The notes beneath the pieces are model-generated. The model was not told where the DNA came from, searched no databases, and saw nothing but the letters and a program-made list of their open reading frames with translations. A stretch of DNA of 64,000 bases from contig CM034607.1 of NCBI GenBank assembly GCA_020091685.1, forward strand, positions 11,027,548 to 11,091,547. The letters are read 5' to 3'. Position numbers and translations under genes: made by a program. Every line of letters begins with the position of its first letter. The first letter of the stretch is position 1. This stretch comes from Lutjanus erythropterus. Its lineage: Eukaryota > Chordata > Actinopteri > Lutjaniformes > Lutjanidae. Shown piece after piece: positions 2,671 to 62,763 of the stretch.

Positions 2671-5600
2671 ATGTCGTACATGCTGCCACATCTCCACAAC
2701 GGCTGGCAGGTCGATCAAGCCATCCTGTCTGAGGAGGACCGAGTGCTCGTCATCCGCTTCGGACACGACTGGGACCCGACATGTATGAAGATGGACGAAG
2801 TTCTCTACAGCATCGCTGAAAAGGTGGTTATTTGTGCCTCATACAGCCTATAAAACGTGTGTTGTTGTTACATTAGCGTTATTAGCTTCCATCTGCTATC
2901 TAAACATGCTCAATAGTATTGCCTGCTGGTCTGCTGTGACAAATGCATCGCTGATTACCCTCGACTGTTGTGTTTGTAAATATGAGACTGAAGTTCATAC
3001 TGCGAGCTTGTCTTTTTGGGGTTAACATTAATTAACAGTTTGTAAAAAAACTCAAAACCCATATTTCATTGAATCACTGTAATCTTTAAACTGCACAGGC
3101 TTACAATTTTGATGATTTCCCAAGCTGGATGGACCTGAGAATAACATATTATTTTCATCTTCAGCCAATAATCTTGTTTCACATCAGTGGGGATGGGAAA
3201 TTAATAAGATGATGATCATAAGCTGTAGTAATCATAGAAGTTACTTTATGTTCATGAAGCTGCTGACCAGAGGAGCCGAAGTATACACATTTTGTACTAA
3301 TGCAGAACTACAGATACTTGTGTTAAAAAGGTTCTGGTTAGATTCAACTTCTTTTTTTGAAGTAAAAGTGAAAAAGTACAGTCTCTTACTGTAAAAGTTG
3401 CAAGTAGCTCTCTGAGGGACATTTTTAACAGCTATTCTTGTGCAAAGCTAACTGAACCTCACCTTTAATTAAGAAATCAACTATTTTCTTGATTAGTAGT
3501 TTGGTTTTTAAAAAGTCAGAAAATGGTGAAACGTGTTAAGTATTTCCCTAAGCCAAGATGACGTCCTCAAATGTCTTGTTTTATTCACAGTCCAAGATGT
3601 TCAGTATACTGTCAAAGAGCAGTTAAGAACCCAGATGATATTCACATTCAGGAAGCTGAAATAAGAGAATTTAATATTATAAAAATATGAGTCAATTATC
3701 AGAATAGTTGGCAACAAATGTAGTAATTGATTGCAGATATAGTAGAAAGTATATTTGTGTTAAAATGTAAGAAGTAAAAGTAAAAAGTTAACAGATAAAT
3801 AAATATTTAAGTAATGTACAGATACCTGAAAACTATTCTTCAGTAAATTAACAAAGTATTTGTACCTCATTACTGTCCACATCTGGTGTTCAAACAAATT
3901 ACCTCCTTGATGTTCAGACTGTCTGAAATATTACAAACACCTGCACTATTAAAACTCCTCAGGGATTTATACATTATCAATAAGCTTGATTGTCCTTTGT
4001 TAGCTGAGGTGAATGTTACCACAGTGACTGATTCCCATCAGTTGCATTCAATGTTTAATGCTAAGCAGTAGTTACTCACAAATTACTGTGACAACACTCC
4101 GTAGTTACAGTATTAATAAACTTTTAAAAATGTTTCCCTGTTAGGACCAACAGGAGGATTACAGTTAATAGTTTGACTTTACCTGCAAAATAATATGGAT
4201 TTTGCATGCTAGAAAAACATGCAATGGTCCTTTTCTGGGATGCTGTAGTTTCTAGTGCAGACTTCTCCTTCCTGCTAAACAGATGTCAAGATTCATCATT
4301 GTGTTCACTGCTTTTGACAGTTTATTGCTGATTTTACTACCAACGTTTCCAATACAGTATGTTATGTTTGGGTGTCTTACACTCAGTTAGCAATTTGTCA
4401 ATTGTTTTCAGGACATGTTGCCCAGAGCTATTAAGGCTGTGAAGCAGCTGAAGCATTGCAATAATTTCTTAAACATGTGACTTGAAGCTAGTTTAAGCAT
4501 GCCCATGTTTTAAAGCAGTCCATTAAAAAAGTTGAGGTATTGCAGGTAAGGCAACAGAGGTTTGTGGTAGTCCATGAACAGTATGTTTAGCACCTGCTGT
4601 ATTGTATATTTAACTGTAAATGTAGGTTATCAGACAGATAGCTAGAACCCAATTCATTATATGCATGCTAGTGTTAAATGGCACTGCAGGTACTAGTGTG
4701 ATTAAAATCTAGATTTTTTTTAATACAAGTTGATTCTGAAAATTTTGAAAATAGACCAACATTTTCCACAATTCTGATACACTGGTTCAAGCTGTATTTT
4801 TGTACTCTCTCGTCTGTCCTACAGCGAGGTGGCACACTCACCGCTTACAGTAGCTTCTTATCCCTACTTCCTGTCACTCACTCACAGTGCAGTCTGCTTC
4901 TCGTCACTTGTCTCATTTGCTCCTTTTGAATAGAACAGCTTACGACAGGCCTTGGTATATGGCAGGTTTTGTTGTTGGCTCATGAAACGGTGGCAAGTAC
5001 AGAGCCTCTGAAAACAGCAGAAAACAGCAGGAGTGCAGTTTGAGGTAAATGAACCTGGGTAGGTGAAGGATATGAGGAAACCCACATGCACCCGATGCTA
5101 CAGAGCTAACACAAAGATGCTGACACAACAAATTTATTAAAGCACCTGAAGAATTGACTAACTCACCCCTATAAAGACTTTCCAAAGGTTGATGCCAGCT
5201 CCCATTTTAACATCACAAGTGTGCTGTACTGTTGTCGGCCTGACCGCTATTTATAATTCTCAAATAATCCCATTTGATAGGAAAATACTTTGATCATGGT
5301 CAGAAGTAAATTCACTTAGATGCTGTTGTGCTTAACACACATTAACTTAATTTCAAAGATTTGTTTATTTAGGCATTTTAAAGGACTAATATAAAAGAAA
5401 AAAAATATCTTTTTATAAGTGGTAGGTTAGGTCATAGCCTTGTTATATGTATATTTTGATTTTAAAAAAAATTGTCTTCAGTGTTATGTTAATTTTCCCC
5501 GCTTGGTATTGAATATTGATATTTTTAAGGTATTAAATCAAAACACACAAACATTGTGAAAACACAATTATTTTACCAATGTAAAAAAAAGTGGAGTAGT

Positions 5601-6219
5601 CCAAGAAAATTTTTATTTAATCCAGAAAGTGACTTTCTCCTGTCGCGTTGGTCCGTCTGTAATCTTGAATGCTTTGTTGTTTATAATGAGATGTTGATGC
5701 TTTACTCTGGTACTGATATTCCACTCTGTGTCCTCACAGGTGAAGAATTTTGCCGTCATCTACCTGGTGGACATCACAGAAGTGCCCGACTTCAACAAGA
5801 TGTACGAGTTATACGACCCCTGCACTGTCATGTTCTTTTTCAGGTGAGCCACCCAAGGTCTAGACTTCAAAATATCAATATAGATTTTACACAAATAATG
5901 ATTATTGTAATTCGATTTAAATTTCAACATTACTTCATGACTCAATTGCTGTATGAAGACCTCCTCATATAAATCATTGCTGTCTGTCACCAATGAGGAA
6001 TTACTGTACAACTTCAGAACTTCATATTGTTGTTGGTGTTTTTTCAGGAACAAACACATCATGATTGATTTGGGAACTGGTAACAACAACAAGATCAACT
6101 GGACGATGGAGGACAAGCAGGAGATGATAGACATTGTTGAAACTGTTTACCGAGGAGCAAGAAAAGGAAGAGGTCTGGTGGTGTCTCCAAAGGATTATTC
6201 TACAAAATACAGATATTGA
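2671..6219 (+). CDS. txnl4a: Thioredoxin-like protein 4A, U5 snRNP 15 kDa protein (DIM1 family)
   Basis: Core component of the U5 snRNP and the U4/U6.U5 tri-snRNP, needed for pre-mRNA splicing in the nucleus. The coding exons are 2671-2823, 5740-5843 and 6048-6219; lengths 153, 104 and 172 sum to 429, exactly 142 codons plus TGA, the usual length of this very conserved protein. The product starts MSYMLPHLHNGWQVDQAI and ends GLVVSPKDYSTKYRY. It has the thioredoxin-like fold but, as usual in DIM1 proteins, no CxxC redox pair: the equivalent region reads GHDWDPTCMKMDE. The junction in the middle of FFFRNKHIM splits the Arg codon (AG|G). Acceptors are cctcacag|GTG and tttttcag|G; the second donor is CAG|gtgagc. 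The first donor, AAG|gtggtt, is weak. The start is certain from homology; the ATG lies 27 bases into its exon (acceptor at 2643). It is the best-supported gene here. Confidence 0.97.
2824..5739. other. txnl4a intron after coding exon 1
   Basis: A 2.9-kb intron without supported coding content. It holds one copy of a dispersed teleost repeat at 3471-3730. The short frames inside it have no recognisable protein. The final intron (5844-6047) is short and plain. Confidence 0.8.
3471..3730 (+). repeat. Dispersed teleost repeat, 'GGGCTGCAACTAA' family, copy 1
   Basis: Contains the recurring words 'gtcagaaaatggtgaaa', 'aagatgacgtcctcaaatgt' and 'atcagaatagttggc'. The same words return at 16893-17070 and 40831-41050, so this is one interspersed family with three copies here. 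Copies elsewhere in teleosts usually begin with GGGCTGCAACTAA (knowledge, not a search). The ends of this copy are degraded. Confidence 0.65.
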
Positions 6220-13800: not shown

Positions 13801-15426
13801 CAAAATGTTTTGTTTTTATCACATATCACACTATACATTTCTTCTCCCGAACATCTATAGCAAGAGTTTGATCTGATCGTTTGAAGTTAGTCCGTGTTAG
13901 ATGTGATAGACAGATGGTTCATCCAATCACCTGCCATGTGTCTTTTTTGAAAGTGCCTGCCCTTTTCCAGACAGTTTCTAAGGACAAATTCGCAGATGGT
14001 TTTGTGTGGCGTGTCAGATTAAGTCTTTACCGGAGGCATCGTTGATTTGGCTTCTAGCAGTACTTCAAAATAAAAGACTTGTACCACTTTCATGTTGTAA
14101 TTGAGGGGGGGAGGTGTCCCCTGGCAGCCCCCACGAAACCCAGGCTTATGTCCAGTAAGTCATTTTATTGACACTTTTTAATAAATAGTAACACTCCAAT
14201 TGCCTGTAGTCTAAACCTTTATCAGAAAGATTTGAGAAAAGTCTGTCAAAATCTAAAAATATTTTTATGTAGCAGAAGCGTATTGTTTTTCTGCTATTCT
14301 GTAGTTTGGTAAATGATGTTAATGATGTTTTATTGCACCATAATATTAACTCTGGTCACTTTCACATAAATAGAACCTTTTGTGGTTATATCCACATTTT
14401 CAGTCATCCTGTCAGCAAATCTCTGTCAGTGTAAATCTGTGACCTTGTTCTTTCACGTCCTTCAATCTACTCACCCCATAAACTCCATCTCTCCTCCTGG
14501 GTTATATCACAGCCTCTTTACATAACCGACACACCAGGGAGAGCTATCAAGACTCATCTCTCTCTCAACTGTTTTCACTCCCTAATTCCCTCAAAGGGAA
14601 TGCCAATTGAAAGGCATGATGGAGAGATAGGGGGAGATAGTTCACCGTTATATATTCTGAGAAAAGGCTTATCTCCAAAACTCCCTCTGAATCAAGATCC
14701 TATGTATTCATCTGATCTATTTTCTTCCAAGATCTACTCAACTGCGTGGGCTTCAGGGTGGGTTTGAGTTTTGTCCCTGTGGGGGAATTACTCAGAACAA
14801 ATCAAATGTTGCCTACAGGTTGGTAAAGATTAACAAGAGCAGATGTTTCATACAGATAATATGCCGAAACAAACACACACAAACCCTGCACCATGATCGA
14901 CCCCCCGCCTGCCTCCTTTCGTAGATGCTGACACACTTAGCAGCCTCGTGTTATATTGGTTTAATTCCCTTCTCTTCCCCTCCTTCGTCTGCCTTTTACT
15001 CCACTTAGGGACCTGTGACTAAATGGATTTGCATCTCACGGCTCGTATCGTTTCCCAGAGGGGTGTCATCCCTCCATCTGCGACAAAATGAAAGGTCTAT
15101 TTAACTTAACTGAGACAGATACAGTACACAGCGAGGAGGTGTGTTTATGCAGTCTGTGGTACCGCTGACGCTGATGTACCGAACGCACGCTGAGCAAACA
15201 CACATGGATCACATGAGGCCCTCTCGCTCTTTATGCTTTCGCTTCCATTCATGGCAGACGCCTCCATTCAGAAGCTTCAGGCCCAATTAGCACCTGCCCA
15301 GTCCTCACAGGCAGAGCAGGCCTCCTGCTACACAGGAGGTGTGACGCCGAGAAAAGCTCCAGCTGAACCAATAGAACCAGCACACGCACGCACACACATG
15401 CACACACACACACACAAACACCAGGC
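10857..15426. other. Intergenic, no gene seen
   Basis: The open frames at 12429-12818, 12012-12250 (minus) and 12838-13222 are low-complexity and overlap in several frames, so they are not genes. 'ttcctaaactttttgactt' near 13340 looks like one end of a hAT-like fragment without a clear partner. A (CA)-rich run lies near 15390-15420. Confidence 0.5.
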
Positions 15427-26965: not shown

Positions 26966-28420
26966 CCCAAAACTTTTTTTTACATCAGGAAAAAGTTTAT
27001 TATACAATCATCCTAACTTCCTGCAATCTTAAATAAACTCTTCTAACTTTAGAATTACTGTTAAGCTGTCCTAAATTTCCACTGGTAGTAGTAGCAGTAG
27101 CTAACTTACTAAGTAGTTCATGGTAGTTTTTGCTAACACTAGCTAACAGTAGTGTTCGCTAACCGTAGTGTTTGCTAACATTAGCTAACAGTAGTTTTTG
27201 CTAACATTAGCTAACAGTAGTTTTTGCTAACATTAGCAAATGGCAGTGTTTTTTAACAGTAGCTCACAGCAATGTTCCCAGTAGCCAACGATAATGTTCA
27301 GTAACAATAGCTAATTGTTGTGTAACGTCACAATAGCTAGCAGTAATGTTTGTTAATGGAAATGTTTGCTATCACTGTGTCAGCTATCTTAGACCACTCT
27401 CTTTCTTCTATCTACCAAGTTAGCATTGTTGTAAATTTCCCAAAGAGAATATCTTTGGATTTATCAACAGATGTTGCCAAAACCTCTGTCTTGAAGTTTA
27501 CTCAGGTTTTTGTTTTATGTTTGAGTATGTTTCAATGACTGAAAAAAAGTTATAAAGTTGTTGTTCGGTAAGATGAGAAAAGTTGTGTTGGTTGCTAGGT
27601 AACAGACATAAATATTGATAAGTGATGTTGGATTTAATATTTAGGATTTTCTAACCTGAGATAAAATAATATGACATAAAATAGGATTCCTAATGTTAGA
27701 ATTTGTTTCTGTAATTCCAAATTGGGAGTTAGACTCTTCCTATCTTAACTTAAGACTTGTGATAGGATGTTTCTGCAATATGGCTGCAGCTCTTTTACTC
27801 TGTTCCTGTCCCATGGGTGGGCTGCCATAGGCACTGGTCTGGGTACAAGACCACCACACAATAGACATTCTGTCCCCCCAGCACACACACAAACGTACAG
27901 AGTGACAATTTAGCCACGGCTCATTTAACCGAGGCCTTTCGTCCGGGCTGCGACCCTGAAGTAAGGGTCCTAACCGGAGTTTTCACCACACCAAACTCTC
28001 GCTGAATGACAAGGACACACACAAACAGTTACTAACTCATAAATGTCAGCTCATACAGTAAAATATAAACAGCCTCACACTTGCGCTGCTTATAACCACA
28101 AATAATGTGAATAATTTCCTTCCCCTCTGCAGCAGCACGGTAGCAAACGATGCTCAGCAGTCACCCACACAGTTTGCAAAAATACCCTGCTGCACATCCT
28201 CGCTCACCATGATTCACTTTCACACCATGTGGACAGAAAAGTCACTGTGCTGCTGAAACAATGTCAAACACAATACAACTCTGCACCACACACACACACA
28301 ACACAACACAACACACACAACAAAACACACACACAGCAGTGCCCCCTCCTCTTATTGCCAGCAGGCTAGTGGGAGATGTTAGTCAAAGGGGGGGAGGGGG
28401 TGTTGTGAGGACATGCCGAA
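26966..28420. other. No gene seen; contains a 26-bp minisatellite
   Basis: The minisatellite at 27081-27345 is described separately. A (CA)n/(ACACA)n run lies at about 28283-28340. The rest shows no exon. Confidence 0.5.
27081..27345. repeat. Minisatellite, 26-bp core unit
   Basis: The unit CTAACAGTAGTTTTTGCTAA plus CATTAG occurs twice in perfect tandem starting at 27185. Diverged versions extend on both sides ('ctaacactagctaacagtag', 'aacagtagctcacagcaatg', 'caatagctagcagtaatgtt'). Confidence 0.75.
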
Positions 28421-28421
28421 T

Positions 28422-28877
28422 GCGTGTGTGTGTGTGTGTGTGTGTGTGAGTCTGTGTGGTGGGGGTCTTTGTGAGCGAGCGAGGTAGGAGGAGAAGGGGA
28501 GAAGGCGGGGGGACAGAGCGTTCTATTTCTCATAGACCAACAGCTGCTGTCTTTAGTGCGGAGACAGAGTGAAGAGAGGAAGAGGGAGGGCTGTGTGGCG
28601 TGAGGCAGTGCGTGTGCTCAGTGTTTAGGTGAATCCACAGCCCTCTGGCTCACAAGGATAAAGGAGGCTCTCCGAGGAAGACTGAGACGGGCAAGACAAG
28701 GACTTTTTCCCTCTTTTTTTAGGCTGTCCTCTGTCGTTTTTTCTTCTTTGGTGCCTGCCTTCAGTCTCTTTCTGCCCTTCTTCTTTTGTTCCCTGCATCC
28801 ATCTGTGTGTTGGTCCAGAGAGAAGGAAGGAAGAGCAGAGTCAGAGGCATCATCCTCCCCTCCTGCAAGCCCAGCCG
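28422..28877 (+). promoter_or_regulatory. Candidate promoter and non-coding first exon of the CYRI-family gene
   Basis: After a (GT)n run (28422-28448) comes a GC-richer, purine-rich block without TATA, then a likely transcribed stretch that ends in a good donor, AGCCG|GTAAGC, at 28877/28878. CYRI genes usually have non-coding 5' exons far upstream, and both coding first exons in this window carry splice acceptors, so such exons must exist. Assignment to the CYRI gene is inference from strand, donor and position; it could serve another transcript. Confidence 0.35.
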
Positions 28878-35582: not shown

Positions 35583-38500
35583 GACTGATTCATCCTCAGA
35601 GTGCGGACATGAGAGTGGCATCAATCTTCTCACCTAACTCAAGCAAATAAGTGTGTTCCCAAAAGCTATTCCTTTTAGACAAATTAAAAATTCTGATCGT
35701 AAGGTTATGTCATTTCACAGCACGGTCACCGGTTTCAGGATTTCAAGTGTCAGTATCTTGAAACAGAGAGGAGCAAGGATCTTCTAAAGTTGAGAATGAA
35801 ACACTTCAGTCAAGAAAAGGTGATTTAACAGAAACTGAAATTCTTGTTTTGAAAGAAATTAGACTTGGGAAGACTTGATTAAAAAAAACTTGCCGAACAA
35901 GCTTTGAATTGAGGGACCATTTAATTGAGCACATATCTATGAAGTAATCCACTGAGTCAGTGGAAATAGTTTTAGGACACAGTGAGATTTAATTCACCGT
36001 GACAAGGGAGCCAAGATCTGATAACTCTTAGATCATATTACTTAACTCTTGATGCTGGATGACACTTGTGGAGACTTCTGAAAAGTCTTATTAAACTCTG
36101 TTATCGTCCTTGTTACGAGTGTCCTGTTGAAACTCTTTGAAATGTGTGATATTACATCCAGTAAGACATAGAGCGAATCCTCTCCAGCCTCTGCGAGTCT
36201 ACTTCTAACCGGACATGACTTAATTGGCTTTTCTAACTCTCTATATGGCAATGAAAGAGGAGATGGTGAGTTTCTGGGTGTAATCTGATTACTTCAGATC
36301 TGCTCTCTGAGGACTTCCTATCATGGCCTGTTGTGCGTCGATCAGATCAATTTTTGTCCACTAATGTCAATGAACAGCCCAAATGCCCGCCCTCTGGTCA
36401 TATTTAAGATCAATATCCCCAATTCAATGGGAAGGTGAAGCCAATTCAGGCCGATGGAGGGCTAAAAAGAGCAGAGCTGGAGAAGAGGAAACGAGACAGT
36501 ATTGCAATTAGTGTGTAATAAGTGAGAGGCAAATTATCTACTTAGCGATGGTATCTCAATCGCAGCTCCAACTCTCTTAATAAGTTCTGCTGGATCATTT
36601 AACCAAGTGTTTGGTTACTGATGCTCTAGGTAAATACACCTCGATGGCAGAGGAACACTTTGACTACCTGAGATGAAGTGTCATAACAGTGGGAAAATTG
36701 GTAAAAATTAGGGTAATTTTTGATGACTTCAGTGATGTCGTGAGGAGACAAGCCAAGTTTGGGCAGTTTTTGATTGTTATTGCTATAATAGCCTGCTGAA
36801 TAACCTGCAGGTCTGGTGCACCTTGTTTTTTTTTTGTGTTTATTTTTTGATAGTCAAGCCTACCAAGAAAACAGAATGATAATACTGGTATAATTGGGTC
36901 AGTGAGAAAGGCTCCAACTGAAATCTACCAGCAAACACTGATCCAGCAAATTCTCACCAGAAATGAAAATACAGTATGTATGTGGTACAGCATGTGGAAA
37001 GCAAACAGAACAGCTTGCTAACATAACAACCCCGAGTTGTCAACTGTAATGTGGATAGCCGAAAGAATCTTAAAGCTCATAAAGACAGAAAATCCTTGTC
37101 TGCACAGAGTGTAACTGTATTAGTAAAAGAAATTGATTAAGAAGTGGTCTGGTCAAGTCTGGAGTGCTGCTGATCATGGTCTCTGTTAAATCTCTATCTC
37201 CTCTCTGCAGTTCATCATTCGTTAAGAGCCTGAACAACCTTAGTAACCCCAAACAGGCACAGCAGGTCTATCAAGCCAGTAAGAATGGTACTTGGAATCC
37301 AAAGTTTGGAGGATGGTGTCATTTTTCTAAATCTTTTACAGCCAAAAAACACAAGAGTAAAAGTGTAGGAAATGGGTTTTTATCTATTCTAACAATAGCT
37401 GTAAACTTTGGCATGTCTGGCTAACTAGCATATTCCAGCTTACTATGTACAGTTATAGTGCTAACGTGGCACTTCTTGCACAGCCAGAATCAGTAACAAA
37501 CATTATTTCGTGGGGTTCCAGGTTATGTTAGACCTCAGTTGTGTATTACCTTCAGTGGGAGTTTTTATCAGTTAAGCTCAAAACATCTTACCAAAGGACC
37601 GCAGCTGAAAATTAGCCAGTTAGCTAAGAGTAAAGATACACTTGCTTTTAACTACCTGTTTGCAGACTTGTCCATATGGCTACTACACGTAGCTGCCTCC
37701 ATTTTGAGTGATGGTTGTGTGCATTTAAACAGCGTGTTTAAACAGCAAACATCTCCAGCGTAACACTGTCACATTTAAATGTTGATTAATGTGTGTATTT
37801 TCTTATAAATAAAAAAGAGTCCTGAATGATGCTGTGAGTTTAGGCTAACATTAGCGGCTCTGTCCTGCTCTTTATTTGATTTGGGGAAGCAACCCTAGCC
37901 AACATCACCAAAGATAACCAAGCATTACATTTGCCTAAGACATCGATTAATCCTCATCCTCAAAGCCTTTGGTTTTAATGTTAAAAGTGACACATTTAGC
38001 ATTAATGTATCCACCATAACCTGTAACTCGTCCAAGTATAGGCACATTTTTATGTAAGCTAAACAAGGTTATGACAGAGCGAAATATATTCTTAAAAATA
38101 CTCTACTACTGTATGTAATACTAGGGTTAATTAACTCTACCTTGCAGTACAAAAACAATGACAATGGATGAGTTTTTGGTGGGAACCTATAACTGATCTT
38201 TTAGCTTGACATCATGTAGACCTATGTGGCAATCAAGTGCCCATTTACAACCTTTTTATTTCTAGTCACACTAAGTCTGAGTTTTCAATCAATCCATGAC
38301 ACCTACAGTAATTAGCAAGTCAGCTATGTTAAGACAACGGTAACAGCAATTGTTCTTTAGCTCAATTTGAGAGGCTTACTTTTGTCGAAGACTCATTATT
38401 TCAAAAATTACAAAAGATTTCAAGTGATAGGCAACCATTATGACTGTAAACCACAGAACGGAAAGCTTGACAGATGCAGCAGCAGCAGCAGCAGCAACCA

Positions 38501-48415: not shown

Positions 48416-50377
48416 ATCCATTCAAAAATGTGTTTTTGTTATGTGTATGTTCCCTAAGACTGGTATCTGGTCAGGTTTTTCACTAGAGTGATGTTTTCAC
48501 ATTCCTCTGATGGGGAAATTCAAACATACCCAGGAAAGCTGGATTTGATACATAACAAATTCGAAAGCCAGGCACTGTCTAATTTGCTTTATGTAGGAAA
48601 AGAAAACAGGAACTTCCAGCTCAGTACACTTGTCAGTACAGAGAGTTAGCAGGAGCCAGAGTTAGCATTACCTGTCTCAGCCCCTGCTAATTACAAGCTA
48701 ACAAACAGCTAAACAAATAAAAGATGCTAACTGCACTTACTATTCTGATAAGTTTGCTAGTTTGCAGACTCTTCATCTGAGTCTGAAACTGACCGAGGCA
48801 CAAACATGAATCTCTCTATGTTTCCTCAACACTAATGGTAGCCATCTTTATGTGCACTGCTCTTTAAATGCTCAAGCTAGCACAAGCAGCACCTGGTGGG
48901 CCCAGCAAAAACCATGCTAAATAAAGTATTAATCATAGCAGAGTATTTTTACAAAACATGTCTGGAGGGGAATTTTAATCTCAGGAGTTGGTGGAGACCA
49001 AAACAGAGCTAAAAGGAGACAGAATGTTGGATTTACATTCTTTGGATGGACATTTCAAATAACTTTTAATGTTTCTCTTTATCTGCTCGGTGTGTAATTA
49101 GGCAATGAATGCTAACATGTTCAACTGACTTGATGATATGCTAATGTTTAGCATAGCAGGTTTGAACTATGTACGAGTAACATGTTTAGACGTAGTAGCA
49201 GGATACATGTGGGTGTATCAAGTTTCATTGTGAAGCCAGCTAGGTTAAATCATATCCTCATCTAAAAGGCTAATGAAAGCAAACTAGCACATCAGCCCCA
49301 TTACTCAATTACTGTTTTATTTTTTGCTCATATGTGTATTTGCCCTTTACGGTTCTTTCTTTGTCCATGCTTTTATTTGCCCTTGTCGACTCAGTGCATG
49401 TTAAAGACAAAATCAAGGCTTCTGCGTTCATCCTTTCCCCGATGCTGTAGCTGCTGCATGTGATGTTGATTTTTATGCTAATTTCTCTTTCTCTCTGTCT
49501 GTCCGTCTGTCTCTTTGTCAGGTGGTGGGTGCTGATGCTGTAACCACTGTGTGGAGCTGACAAGCCCTGGTTGATGCAGTGAAGTGTTCCAGAGGGATAA
49601 ACACAAGCGAAGGTAGGAATGAAAACTTGGGAGTGGAGAAAAAAAAAGAAAGAAAGAAAGACAGAAAGAAAAAAGAACAGCAGCTGAAAAACAAGGAGAT
49701 GGCAGAGAAACACCATATGGGCGAATCGGAGAGGGGGGGAGATGGATGGACACTTCAAGGATAAGGGAGCGGAGATGGGTAGAGCTGTGAGAGTACAGTC
49801 GCTGCATCCGTTGCATACAGTACAGCTGCTGAATGGGTTTGATTCACAGGCCACTGAATACCCAGTCAGCCAGTGTGCGACAGAAAGAGAGATCATTGTG
49901 GTTAGACAGAAAGAGACACAGATGGAGAAAGGGAGTTCAGATGGTATTATTGGTGAATTAATAGAGGTTAGACTTGGCAAAGACGAGCATCTCCGCTTCT
50001 GTGCTCAGTAAATCCACACTGACGAAGCTCCTGGTGTGTAACAGGAGGAATCTTTCAGTACAAGCTGAAAAGGAAGCCGGGAGGCCTCGCTCTGCTGCTT
50101 GGCTTCCAGTCTGGACCAGGTTTGCTTTTGAGACGCCATGTGGGAGCCGAGCCGTGTCTTTATTAAGACTCGAGGAGCCCCCTCGGTTTGGTTTCTCCTG
50201 CCGGACTACAGATGAGAGCAGTGTGTGCTGTGCAGTTGCATAAGAGAAGCACTTTGCTCCACTTTCACGCTGGCTGACTGCAAACACTGTGTGTATGTGT
50301 GTGTGTGTGTTTGCATGTAAGAGAAACTGCAACCAGTTGCAGCCAAACACACTTCCTAATTCATAGAATGCCATGTC
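48416..50377. other. Probable intron, no coding exon seen
   Basis: 48416-49060 looks like degraded repeat DNA rich in 'gttagc' words. A purine-rich (GAAA)n stretch lies at about 49638-49677. Open frames on both strands at 49300-50400 are unrecognised and overlap each other. Confidence 0.4.
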
Positions 50378-51729: not shown

Positions 51730-52004
51730 CCTTTAAATAGATGGCAGAAAAAGAGAAGTGTGAAGTGGACAGAGATACACAGAGGGAGAAAGAGCGAGAG
51801 CAGAAGTTTACATCAGTCTCTAAGAAAAGCAGAGTGGCAACCGGTGCCGCTGCCGTCGCCGCTGCGGGACTGCAGTCATTACTTTAACCTGGGATTTACT
51901 CACAGCAACGATTTCACGAAGCAGGGAGGACAAAGACAGGACGGGGGAGAAGAAACTGAGGGATAAAGATAAAGGAAGAGGCAACTCAGTCATAGAATAA
52001 GAGG
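51730..52004 (+). promoter_or_regulatory. Candidate second non-coding 5' exon of the CYRI-family gene
   Basis: A perfect CRE palindrome TGACGTCA lies at 51502-51509 and a TTTAAATA at 51732-51739. A GC-richer stretch follows ('ggtgccgctgccgtcgccgc') and ends in a good donor, AGAGG|GTAAGAAG, at 52004/52005, 3.7 kb before the first coding exon. This is consistent with an alternative promoter and leader exon, but no single feature is decisive. Confidence 0.25.
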
Positions 52005-54000
52005 GTAAGAAGACAGAAATGTGAGAGGCTGCTTGATTTCCTGTTTTTTAAAGCTTGGTGTGGCTGTTTGTGCTCTGCAATTAATACAAAGACTGATTGC
52101 TCTTCAGGTAGTAAAGATTGCTGCATCAGATCACTGTTGTAAGCAACTGACCCAGTGTGTGAGCAAACTGGATGCTTTTTTTTTTTTCCTCCACATCTTC
52201 TGCTGAGACGAGCAGACGATATCACCAGGCCAACAGTATCCTGGCAACCATCAGCCGAGCTCTGCTCTCGGGATGGACCACATGCTGCTCCAGACTTGGT
52301 GTATGTGTGTTAATGTGTGTGTGTGTGTGTTTGAGTGAGTGAGTGTATGTGTGTGTGTGTGTGGACGGTGTGCGGCTACCTCCACTACACACACTCACCT
52401 ATTCACACGTCAAAAAAGCTTTCTTTGCTTTCTATGAGGCTCGATCTGAATCTCAGCTTGACTTCGCCTTTGCAATCACCTTGTCAGGCTGAAGATGTGA
52501 ATCTGTTATTCATTTATTCATAGCGTCCTGCTATCTTGGAGCAGGTGGTCTAAAAGTCAGGAGGAAGAGACGGGGTGTTTTTACATGTTTGGCCCGATGC
52601 TCACAGGTTACAGCAGTGACTCAGCACATAGCTCTCTTTCTCTGCCTAGAAATTGATTTTGTAGATTGAGTAAATAAATAAAAAGCAGGGACAAAAGTTT
52701 AACTTTTTAAAATTTCCCTCTTTGAGGAGGGATGCTTCAAGGACACGTAAAAGCAACATATTTTCGAATCTCGAATAAGCTAATGCTAAACACTAGCTAT
52801 CTAATCAACATAAATCACTAGTTAGCTAGACACCTAGCATCCTGCTAACATTAGCTAGCTAGTTAGCTAGTTTTTTGATAACATTAACTACTAAAGTGTG
52901 GCTTTATATGTAGATTTTGTAGGTAAAAGAGAAAGTTGACAGAGCTACCAAGTTTGCTCAACTGTTATTGCAGAACACAGAGCAAAAAGTTGCTCCTTAG
53001 TACATAATCACCTCTTACAGACAGCATACACATCTGGACTATTGAGACAGATGTTCTTCCTCACCCTAACTCTGGACTTTTCCTGCAAATAAAATGAGCA
53101 AATAAATATATCTTCAATAACAGCAAGGCGAAAGTAACACCATGTCCCTCAGCTGTCTCCGTCAGCTTTACCCCTGGCTAGCACCAAACTTAGGCTAGCA
53201 TGATAAATTATACCTTCACCAGTAATTAGCCCACTGATAGTTCTAACAGACGATACACATTTCGATCTTCAACAAAAAAACATTATCTTAAAAACAGGAA
53301 ACACTTCCCTGTTTTATTTTTTTTACTTTTGAAGAGAGAAATTAGTTTTACTACAGTAACTCTGGCAAAAGGGAGCTGATGGGGCTGGTTTTTTCATGTA
53401 GATTCAATGATTGAGTAGCTGGTTGCATAGACTTCACGGCATGTTCATGCCTCCTATGTTGCAAGAGAGAATGTCTGTGTTGCAACCGTCCCTGGTATGT
53501 TTTTGTCCCAGCTCTCCCCTACAGTAGATGAAGTACTCACCTAAAAAGTTGCCACTTTGCAAGCTGTCTGAGCGACTGGACAGTGTAACTCCATCCTGTA
53601 CCTCAGTGCTGCATTGCAACAGCCGTTCTTGCTGAGTAACGGAGAAAAGACGGGGCTTTTTTTGCACGACGGTGGCATCTCATAAACATGCTAATGCTGG
53701 CCATAACTCAGTCTTGCAGGGGGGGAAACTGATAGGCCTCCGCTGTGTGCTAACATAGCACATAAACACAGAGGGTACAGCAGAGGAAGTGAAACTTGGC
53801 AGCTGCTTACCTTCTGCTCTATGGTCGAGAAGAGAGGCTTTCATACTCGCACAGCTGAGAGTCATTTCTGAATATTGGATTCCACTCGGTTTTGTGTTTA
53901 TTGTGTGTTTTTTATGCAACATACACACAGGTCCACATGTGGCCTCACAATCCTGTCCCTCTCTGATCCCTTTACACCCATTTTCCTCAAATTTCATCCT
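52005..54000. other. Probable intron, no coding exon seen
   Basis: Contains (TG)n-rich sequence at 52310-52365 and a TAGC-rich, repeat-like stretch at 52780-52880. No supported exon. Confidence 0.45.
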
Positions 54001-54810: not shown

Positions 54811-55705
54811 GCGTGTGATTAAGTAATAAGAGGACAGCAAAAATAAAGAAATATTTGGCAATTTATTTGGTGGTAATAAAAATGTGTAAATCGTGACACA
54901 TGGCTCTCCCACACATGACAAGCTGTTCTGGCCTTGGTGTAGTTCTTGGTATTGGATTGAAACCAGATTTTGAGGCATGTCCCACCTCTAATTTTGAACA
55001 ATATTTTGCTCCGCAGCATGAGTTTAAACTGGCCGGCCTGAGCGGGATTGAAGAGGTTGAAATCGGGGACAACTGTCATGGTCTTAAATCACCTGACATA
55101 CGCTGTTTTGTCTGCTTGTATACGAATATACAAGCCTGTAGACTTGTATATCCTGCAAGCCTGACCTGCAGTATAATCTGATAAAGCCTGCATCATTGGT
55201 TTCATAAAGTGCCGGCATCTGGCCTTTGGGTATGAAGTATAAAGAGCCTGTCATAAAGTATCCATAGCCTGCTGTACATGAAGGGCATTAGGAGAGAGTA
55301 GCCCATACATAGCATGCTTTTATTAGGTTACTATAGTAATGTAAATGGATTTAAACCACTGCTCAGCTCTACTGACTCCCAATGAGTGAGCTAAATGATT
55401 CACTACTGGATTTCGCCTCCCCTCTAATTGAATATGTGTATGGGATGCAAACTGTGATCAGTGTCATTTCTGACTGGGATGTCTGACTTGGCTCTGGACA
55501 TATTGCTTAGACAGAAGGATGGAGGAGGAGAGGAAGAGAAGGGATAATTAGAAAAGTGCAGATGGGTAAAAAAATAAAATAAAATAAAATAAACCAGTCC
55601 CAACCTGCTGTGTTCTCCATGTGCATGTTGTGTATTTTCCTGCGCGTTGCCAGGTTCTGCGTACTGTATGCATTTTGTTGTTTCCTCCCGTCCAGGTCGC
55701 CAGCC

Positions 55706-55775
55706 ATGGGGAACCTCATTAAGGTCCTTGGCAAGGATTTAGAGAACTGTCCACATTTTTTCCTGGACTTTGAAA
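55706..55775 (+). CDS. cyria/cyrib: CYRI family (FAM49) alternative first coding exon 1a, CYRIA-like N-terminus
   Basis: CYRI proteins bind active RAC1 and locally oppose the WAVE/SCAR complex, limiting Arp2/3-driven protrusions at the plasma membrane. The exon begins after acceptor 'cccgtccag' (ends 55695), has a strong start context (GCCAGCCATGG), and ends at donor A|gtaagtg in phase 1. It encodes 23 residues, MGNLIKVLGKDLEN at the start and CPHFFLDFE at the end. Gly2 is the residue myristoylated in CYRI-B. Length and ENxPHFF resemble mammalian CYRIA. Joined to 62642-62763 it reads on as DFE-NAQPTEAE. The rest of the gene (RAC1-binding CYRIA/CYRIB domain, formerly DUF1394) is beyond the window. 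The shared exon does not separate CYRIA from CYRIB, so the paralogue is unresolved. Confidence 0.92.
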
Positions 55776-57659
55776 GTAAGTGAGCGCCGGGGTGTGTGCA
55801 CGTGTCTGTGTGCTTGAGATGCGAGAGCACATGTGTGCAGCGGAGGTGTGCAGTGGGAGGTCGCTGGGTGGGGTCAGGGGAGGTGCATTTGGATGCGAGC
55901 TGCTGAGTTGTTGATGGTGTGATGGAGTGGTGTTGTGGGTGTGGTTTGTCATTATCAGATGCTCTCTAGTCCCACTCTCACTGCTCTCTGTTGCTAAAAG
56001 CCCTTCTATCCAATGATAGTGTAAAGACATGATGTGTAGGTATAAATAAAATGGTGTGTAGGCAATTACTGTGAGGCAAACAAGCATCAGCACAGATCAA
56101 ATCCAGGTACACTTTCAGAGAAGAGTTTATTTATGCTGTTACCTTTTAAACAACACTATCCTCAAATAATTTTCCTGACTTATACATAAGTCAGTCGTTA
56201 TAATAATAAACTTTTTTATGTTATAATGTGATACTGATTTTCCTTTTTCTGGTTTGGCAGCAATACGCTGTCATACACAAATGTGTGCTACTGGATTGTG
56301 TTTTGTAAGGGAGAACAGCATAAATAAATGTTATAAAGTGAAGCGTGTATTATTATAACAGGATGTTTTTCATGTTATAACAGTTCTACATTTAGCAGTA
56401 AGATAGTTTCACATTATTATGTCATACAAAGTTATGACAAACTTTTTACTTGTTATACAGCAAAATGTTTGATATGCTAACTTATTACTGTAACAACAAA
56501 AATATTTCATGTCATCATGTAATTGTCTAATTTACATCGTTATAACATTACAAAAAGAAATGTTCTTAATAATATACTGTTTATCTTGTTATAATGTGAA
56601 ATGTTTCATGTTATAATGTGATTACTTATATTGTTATAATATGACATTATACAAATATAAGTTATTGTGTTATAACTATTTAAGTTATCACGCAATGAAG
56701 ACTTATAACAAGATAAATATTATATATTTATGTTGTAATAACATGAAAATATCTTGTTATAACTTGAAAATTATGTTGTTATAATAAATAAATGTTTCAT
56801 GTTGTAACATGATACTGATGTGTTTTTCCTCGTCTGGTGTGGCAGCAACATTCTGCTGTACAAGTGTTCCCTTTTCTAGAAAATAATATTATGGGGTTGA
56901 GTTCATTTCAGTATCATTCAACAAAATCTCCCAAGAATTAAAAAGAGATACATAAAATGAGAATGGCTGCAGGAATGTCATGAAAACCCCACTGTTCTTC
57001 ACTTTCACTGCTCCAGTTACACTTCTGACAGAACAATCATTACAAGGTTAACATCTGCCTACAAATAAGGGCATTGTAGTTCTCTGAGAAATTTTAATGT
57101 AGTTTTTGCTTTTGAGGATTTTTGCTTAAAATTGTGTTTATTCTCTCTCATGTTAATTTTTCTGTATTTGATCCTGGAGAAGAAAGACTCTCTTACAATA
57201 GTGTTTTTTGTTTGTTTGTTTGTTTTACATAGACTTATTTTTTTAGTGTTTTTCTTCAATTGTTTTCTCTCTCAATTATTATTATTATGATTCTGTTAAT
57301 ATTAAAGATTTGTGCCAGAAAATGAGAATTAGGTTAACTGTAACTGTAAGATTTGACCTTTGCCATCCTGAGTGACACCAAATGACTTTTTCCTCTTTAA
57401 GTCAAGCTATACTTACTATCATACGAGTGGGATTAAAGAAGCTCTGTGTCCATGTTGCCATGCTTCACCCAGGACATACTTCCACCGCCATTCCAACAAC
57501 CCCCCTCTCATCCAGTCCCCCACCCCGACACCTTCACCTCTCACACACCACACACACGTACAACTCACTCACACACACAGACACAAACACGCGCACAACC
57601 CCGACACCCATCCCCTCATCACCCACAGACTTCTCCCCTCTCTCTGTTCCAGGGGGCTC
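55776..57659. other. Intron between the two alternative CYRI first exons
   Basis: Contains a GT-rich stretch just after the donor and an AT-rich array of 'gttataa' words (56190-56830). The stretch before exon 1b (57500-57652) is C-rich and CA-rich and ends in a good pyrimidine tract. Confidence 0.7.
56190..56830. repeat. Array of 'gttataac/gttataat' words
   Basis: More than ten 'ttataa' words, mostly as 'gttataa' with 'catg' or 'tgtg' beside them. A longer word pair, 'atgttataatgtgatactga' (from 56218) and 'atgttgtaacatgatactga' (from 56798), both followed by 'ttttcc', 'ctggt' and 'ggcagcaa', marks the ends of the array. Confidence 0.65.
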
Positions 57660-57732
57660 ATGGGAAACCTCCTGAAAGTGCTGGCTTGCGCCGAACTTGA
57701 GCATGGCCCAATAGTTTTCCTTGACTTTGAAC
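57660..57732 (+). CDS. cyria/cyrib: CYRI family (FAM49) alternative first coding exon 1b, CYRIB-like N-terminus
   Basis: Second first exon of the same gene. It starts after acceptor 'ctctgttccag' (ends 57652), with seven bases before the ATG, and ends in donor C|gtgaga in phase 1. It encodes 24 residues, MGNLLKVLACAELEHGP then IVFLDFE, the length and 'LE(H/Q)GP' pattern of mammalian CYRIB. Gly2 is kept. Joined to 62642-62763 the junction codon becomes CAT, giving DFE-HAQPTEAE rather than DFE-NAQPTE. The start context (ctcATGG) is weaker than that of exon 1a. The IV before FLDFE differs from the usual NF/HF. Probably functional, given frame, length and splice sites, but I cannot exclude decay. 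Confidence 0.85.
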
Positions 57733-62641: not shown

Positions 62642-62763
62642 ATGCCCAGCCCACGGAGGCAGAGACAGCCGTGTGGAACCAGGTCAGCGCTGTGCTGGAG
62701 GAGGCTCATGGGATCCTAGCCGAGCTGCAGTCCTATAATGGCGCGGGCCAGGAGATACGAGAA
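62642..62763 (+). CDS. cyria/cyrib: CYRI family (FAM49) shared second coding exon
   Basis: Follows a long pyrimidine tract and acceptor 'ctcccag'. Enters in phase 1 and leaves in phase 0 at GAA|gtgagc, with 122 bases. It encodes (N/H)[13 protein letters not shown], then [17 protein letters not shown], then [10 protein letters not shown], the conserved segment that follows the N-terminus in CYRIA and CYRIB. By eye it matches the human paralogues about equally (roughly 26-27 of 41 positions each), so the paralogue cannot be named from this exon. The next exon, expected to begin with AIQNP/AIQHP, is not found before 64000. Confidence 0.95.

Follow-up and report, generated by a model that had tools for sequence, protein, structure and literature searches.

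Two putatively alternative first coding exons in a teleost fam49al gene, with both exon types present in all three vertebrate CYRI paralogs

Results

A CYRI gene with two N-termini

CYRI proteins hold back the actin protrusion that Rac1 drives, and it is their first 25 residues that face the membrane. In a stretch of 64,000 nucleotides from the fish Lutjanus erythropterus, here called the window, one CYRI gene carries two exons, A and B, that each encode a complete N-terminus and that each fit the same following exon. By sequence comparison, this gene is the 5' part of teleost fam49al (“CYRIA-like”, CYRI-C), a third vertebrate paralog distinct from CYRIA and CYRIB. We consider it probable that 5' UTR exons join A or B, each of which then joins the same Rac1-binding body, that the pair goes back to a duplicated exon in a gene ancestral to CYRIA, CYRIB and CYRI-C and was kept in all three, and that the outcome is a swap of membrane anchor. 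Confidence in this explanation is lowered by the evidence on the order of origin of the two exons, and by gene models that mix both. Published work already describes paired CYRI N-termini for human FAM49B, and the pair described here is conserved and ordinary in kind; the value of the finding lies in the pair's shared ancestry and in the caution it brings to comparisons of CYRI-A with CYRI-B. Features of the gene are collected in Table 1.

Table 1. Features of the fam49al gene in the window (a slash marks a splice junction)
Feature	Position	Strand	Details
U1, 5' UTR exon		28400..28877	+	donor CCG/GTAAGC places the 3' boundary; 28400 is the start of the stretch read, not a 5' end
U2, 5' UTR exon	49522..49612	+	91 nt; acceptor gtcag/GTGG, donor GAAG/GTAGGA
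U3, possible further 5' UTR exon or proximal start (tentative)	51741..52004 (approximate)	+	similar to upstream parts of models P0021 (turbot, A form) and P0054 (Pogonophryne, B form)
Exon A	55696..55775	+	80 nt, phase 1; acceptor ...cctcccgtccag/GTCGCC; 10 nt of 5' UTR; ATG 55706; A-type N-terminus MGNLIKVLGKDLENCPHFFLDFE, 23 aa; donor GAAA/GTAAGT after 55775
Exon B	57653..57732	+	80 nt, phase 1; acceptor ...ctctctgttccag/GGGGCTC; 7 nt of 5' UTR; ATG 57660; B-type N-terminus MGNLLKVLACAELEHGPIVFLDFE, 24 aa; donor GAAC/GTGAGA after 57732
First common coding exon	62642..62763	+	start of the CYRIA/CYRIB Rac1-binding domain (PF07159)

The original prediction of two exons, each with a full CYRI N-terminus ending in phase 1 and joining the exon at 62642, is borne out, with start codons and donors as in Table 1 and splice sites intact. 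Exons A and B lie 1,877 bases apart; both have a pyrimidine tract and AG on the 5' side and a GT donor on the 3' side, both have the same length from acceptor to donor, and the frame of both fits the common exon. Their coding DNA is identical at 46 of 69 bases. Joined to the common exon, A gives 64 residues and B gives 65, with a junction codon for Asn (A+AT) after A and for His (C+AT) after B. Among the 69 database B-forms of fam49al the junction residue is His in 34, Asn in 34 and Arg in one, in agreement with the position of the exon B donor. Pfam model PF07159 matches the joined A form at 55.1 bits and the joined B form at 52.7 (cut-off 23.1), the window holding only the first 48 of the 301 profile positions. 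The Arg pair that binds active Rac1 (160/161 in CYRI-B) belongs to exons beyond the end of the window. Both products start with MGN, that is, with the N-terminal Met-Gly of a predicted myristoylation site, which agrees with the earlier view that these exons encode the membrane-facing end of the protein.

Either exon alone is in frame with the common exon. The two together, through these plain sites, are out of frame: when B follows A, the reading frame changes and ends at a stop codon seven residues beyond exon A. A second GT lies four bases past the exon A donor (GAAAGTAA/GTGAGC, window 55776-55785); its use would bring A and B into a common frame joined by SKGLM, the linker of Dissostichus model P0001, which is probably a forced prediction.

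Protein searches, each placing one N-terminus on a CYRI-length query, returned 230 and 171 matches at E <= 0.001, and the best 120 of each were used. Among the matches listed, the A form with the common exon is 100% identical over 64 residues to annotated teleost fam49al proteins, and the B form is 100% identical over 65 residues to entries from Esox, Amphiprion ocellaris, Scophthalmus, Cyclopterus and Solea. Full-identity rows (64/64 or 65/65) from other teleosts have E values of about 1e-33 to 3e-37, which excludes chance, and on this identity the window gene is assigned to fam49al. Teleost fam49al differs from it in species only; the same gene in teleosts, frogs, reptiles, birds and the wombat has its A and B forms annotated as separate isoform models. 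Among the matches listed, fam49al ranges over fish, frogs, reptiles, birds and a wombat, which agrees with the account of FAM49C that introduces PMC8872254, so fam49al is probably FAM49C.

5' UTR exons and the choice between A and B

The 5' UTR exons were located through the upstream sequence of other species' models, read as protein. U1 is matched by Scomber model P0075 (AQP/VVGADAVTT) and by Solea model P0073 (AQP/VEGADAVTT), both of which continue into U2. Across the junction of U2 with exon A the window encodes GINTSEGRQPWGTSLR, which Solea P0073 shares, and Oryzias P0077 has STSEEGRQPWGTSLR; U2 joined to exon B in the window would give RRGLMGNLL. The arrangement we favor would run from the fam49al 5' UTR exons to A or to B, and from either to the one Rac1-binding body.

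Alternatively, the gene might have two promoters, with B starting inside the A-B intron and reading straight into its ATG, so that the choice is made by transcription rather than by splicing of one 5' UTR. Myripristis P0074 is colinear with the window through the region upstream of B, the acceptor included (57492-57659, 70%), as is Denticeps P0076 (57519-57659, 51%), and bird models P0081 and P0090 give MLFSSCFFSCRFHMGNLL, which resembles a pyrimidine tract that has been read through. Such read-through models, however, may reflect annotation choices. The 3' splice site of exon B is still a good one; Scomber P0075 and Pogonophryne P0054 are spliced to B from upstream 5' UTR sequence, and Oryzias P0077 reaches B by way of part of exon A. 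Two promoters are a possible but less likely alternative.

Whichever way the choice is made, use of A and B may not be exclusive, as suggested by four models that hold both. Ostrich P0119 and Anolis P0121 place exon A, translated in a different frame, directly before exon B; this fit covers 22 of 22 positions, compared with at most 14 in 200 shuffles of 26 longer extensions. In Solea P0073 and Oryzias P0077, part of exon A precedes B. One transcript can thus be modelled with both exons, and translation of that transcript from the start codon of A would lose the frame.

Both exon types in all three paralogs

The pair is not confined to this fish. The isoforms compared here for all three paralogs come from gene annotations, in which models with A only and models with B only both exist. 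Among 134 proteins (from the best 120 of 230 and the best 120 of 171 matches), nine gene models carry A and B in tandem: five of fam49al (P0001-P0004, P0025), two of CYRIA (P0053, and P0072, which is marked low quality and whose B lacks MG), and two of CYRIB, both from birds (P0056, P0079). A precedes B in every one of them. These tandem models are probably forced predictions, yet they indicate that both exons are present in the locus of each paralog. Likely pairs of A and B forms from one locus are P0034 and P0089 in Nipponia and P0035 and P0095 in Chlamydotis, the two members of each pair coming from contigs of equal listed length; in Ascaphus, the A form P0036 and the B forms P0061 and P0063 share one locus tag.

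A census of 135 proteins (the 134 plus lamprey P0196), sorted by body motif, yielded 144 N-termini: 54 A and 69 B for fam49al, seven A and three B for CYRIA, and two A and seven B for CYRIB, with the lamprey (A) and P0131 (B) unclassified by paralog. Of the 54 fam49al rows with an A-type N-terminus (P0001-P0052, P0055 and P0065), which range from fish to frogs and birds, 53 have the identical end, and the B-type end differs between fish and tetrapods.

The prediction had read the two ends as 23 and 24 residues long with ENxPHFF and LExGP patterns, respectively, which holds; its assignment of these patterns to CYRIA and CYRIB does not, as both types are found in all three paralogs. The window gene was considered as a mix of two genes, a CYRIA-like exon with a CYRIB-like exon, and this candidate was rejected because each paralog has both types. 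On the sequences compared, A and B are exon types, and the labels CYRIA-like and CYRIB-like mislead.

The tandem bird models of CYRIB are consistent with our assumption that isoform 3 of human FAM49B has an A-type end. In CYRI-B structures, too, the deposited sequences carry the two exon types, A-type in 6YJJ (whale shark) and B-type in 7AJK (mammalian); both belong to the same protein family as the window gene but to the CYRIB paralog. As described in PMC7955166, the 7AJK construct is without N-terminal residues 1-25. In PMC7543656, on the whale-shark CYRI-B structure, most of the whale-shark/human substitutions that alter the properties or kind of a residue fall at residues 10-18; we read this contrast as one between different exon types, not simply as divergence. 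According to a passage in PMC8872254, isoforms 1 and 3 of human FAM49B/CYRIB are both 324 residues long and differ only in the first 25, and isoform 3 starts on exon 12, upstream of exon 14. This human case resembles the window gene in having two N-termini from one gene (PMC8872254), but it concerns another paralog. Together with bird CYRIB models, CYRIA models P0053 and P0072, and the 6YJJ and 7AJK sequences, it leaves unsupported the idea that the two versions belong mainly to separate genes. Among the literature matches listed, considered by title and start of abstract, none was found on paired exons across the CYRI paralogs.

In its broadest form, the proposal would make the A/B pair an ancestral vertebrate anchor switch, present in all three paralogs since before their split, such that part of the mammalian contrast between CYRI-A and CYRI-B comes from exon type (an A-type end on CYRI-A, a B-type end on CYRI-B), with each gene able to make both. 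We put this forward tentatively. If every vertebrate CYRI gene can exchange its N-terminus, then knockouts, tagged constructs, and comparisons of CYRI-A with CYRI-B must state which end is meant. The practical side is illustrated by work reported in PMC8872254: isoform 3 was found in HEK293T cells by RT-PCR and cloning, and the guide used against exon 14 targeted isoform 1 but left isoform 3 expressed.

Age and origin of the exon pair

A tree of the protein body (46 hand-picked rows, 300 columns) resolves CYRIB (99/95), CYRIA (100/99) and fam49al (100/99) as clades, with A, B and AB rows inside each; the window gene is not among the rows, as too little of its body lies in the window. The rows from lamprey, amphioxus, Nematostella, a brittle star and two insects lie outside the three clades; their label A denotes only the lack of the B motif. 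For lamprey the tree has a single isoform, whose row adjoins CYRIA plus fam49al (91/71, not starred), so the split of the paralogs may predate the lamprey lineage.

The N-termini make a much shorter alignment (25 N-termini, 25 columns). In the tree of these ends the B rows group together (82/95, not starred). Forcing the A and B ends of fam49al into one clade is rejected (p-AU 0.006), while the same constraint on CYRIB is not (p-AU 0.07); a tree of the first exons, as had been suggested for this gene, thus speaks against an origin of the pair within fam49al alone and is less decisive for CYRIB. Ends of the same type from different paralogs have a mean identity of 0.78 (73 pairs, down to 0.60), compared with 0.66 for different types within one paralog (31 pairs, up to 0.78). 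The B-type end of Menidia CYRIA is one residue away from that of mammalian and bird CYRIB.

These observations bear on whether exon B instead arose separately, in parallel, in each paralog, with the likeness among B ends due to convergence or gene conversion. The shortness of the N-terminal alignment, the p-AU of 0.07 for CYRIB, and the overlap of the two identity ranges leave some room for this, but the higher mean identity within types, the near match between Menidia CYRIA and CYRIB of mammals and birds, the rejection of a fam49al clade, and the A-then-B order of all nine tandem models argue against it, and we regard separate origins as unlikely. The A/B pair, then, most likely predates the split of CYRIA, CYRIB and fam49al, one of the two options first proposed, given its presence in all three clades. 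It can serve as a test case for duplication of an exon ahead of the duplications that produced a paralog family.

Which exon came first is less clear. The stretch L-E-x-G-P occurs in none of 64 further proteins (one of them from lamprey) from a search of non-vertebrates, which used one fly-like query against a database clustered at 90%, where B-type isoforms could be hidden. Most of these 64 have a basic-acidic pair after residue 9, the exceptions being P0189 and P0193-P0195. Raw identity to A versus B is 0.58 versus 0.57 for amphioxus, 0.48 versus 0.51 for Nematostella, 0.53 versus 0.55 for the brittle star, and 0.76 versus 0.69 for lamprey. By identity, then, the non-vertebrates do not favor A over B, and the case for A as the older exon is weak. 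The likelier order would have B as the newer copy, probably arisen in the vertebrate stem by a duplication that preceded the separation of the three paralogs, each of which retained the pair.

The membrane anchor

On sequence grounds, the A/B pair most likely serves, by alternative splicing or alternative start, to swap the myristoylated anchoring helix of a Rac1 inhibitor. Regulated use of the two exons, the order of their origin, their effect at the membrane, and a functional switch are what we infer from the comparisons above. PMC7955166 assigns membrane binding to residues 1-25 and Rac1 binding to residues 26-215, so exon choice would alter the anchor and should spare the Rac1 site. For CYRI-A, an amphipathic N-terminal helix with Gly2 has been predicted, as described in PMC8236918.

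The choice of exon would exchange the first 23 or 24 residues, keeping the Gly2 myristoylation site and the first helix (MGNL-I/L-KVL) and changing residues 9-18. There the A-type end has a basic-acidic pair (K10-D11 in this fish), and the fish B-type end has Cys10 and the stretch ELEHGP. The A and B proteins would be expected to bind Rac1 alike and to differ in the tightness and place of their membrane attachment, the fish A form possibly through myristate plus a basic residue and the fish B form through myristate plus a possible palmitoyl cysteine; a cell could thereby place the Rac1/WAVE brake differently.

Fam49b appears in ten of 18 mammalian palmitoyl-proteomes as tabulated in PMC5468251, where the entry gives no site. 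A Cys at residues 9-12 is found in B rows of CYRIA (3/3), CYRIB (7/7) and fam49al (27/69), and in none of the 63 A rows of the three paralogs. The remaining 42 fam49al B rows, from tetrapods, have Tyr10 instead, and Cys15 is present in all 54 fam49al A rows; a cysteine switch was therefore rejected as a general rule. A contrast of myristate plus palmitate in B with myristate plus a basic residue in A may apply as a partial idea, allowed by the sequences in fish and not in tetrapod fam49al. AlphaFold models of one bird A form (P0035) and one bird B form (P0095) have a mean pLDDT below 55 over residues 1-20 and do not tell these two ends apart.

That one exon is a decaying relic no longer used in this fish seems very improbable: exon B does carry IVF where other B types show NFF and has the weaker start context (C at -3, compared with G for A), but frames and splice sites of both exons are intact, and B with the common exon matches several teleosts, for example Esox and Solea, at every one of 65 residues.

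Other features of the window

Exons of txnl4a (DIM1/TXNL4A, PF02966) lie upstream on the same strand, at window 2671-2826, 5698-5844 and 6040-6171 (+). Scomber (mackerel) model P0075 fuses txnl4a with fam49al, which is probably an annotation error. No Rfam family matches the window at gathering score. Three segments that are single-copy in the window (14728-14817, 36251-36435 and 52123-52290) resemble upstream parts of other fishes' fused or extended models; the latter two contain in-frame stops, and all three are possibly conserved non-coding or UTR sequence. Within the A-B intron, self-comparison reveals degenerate AT-rich repeats, some of them inverted, at 56328-56813.
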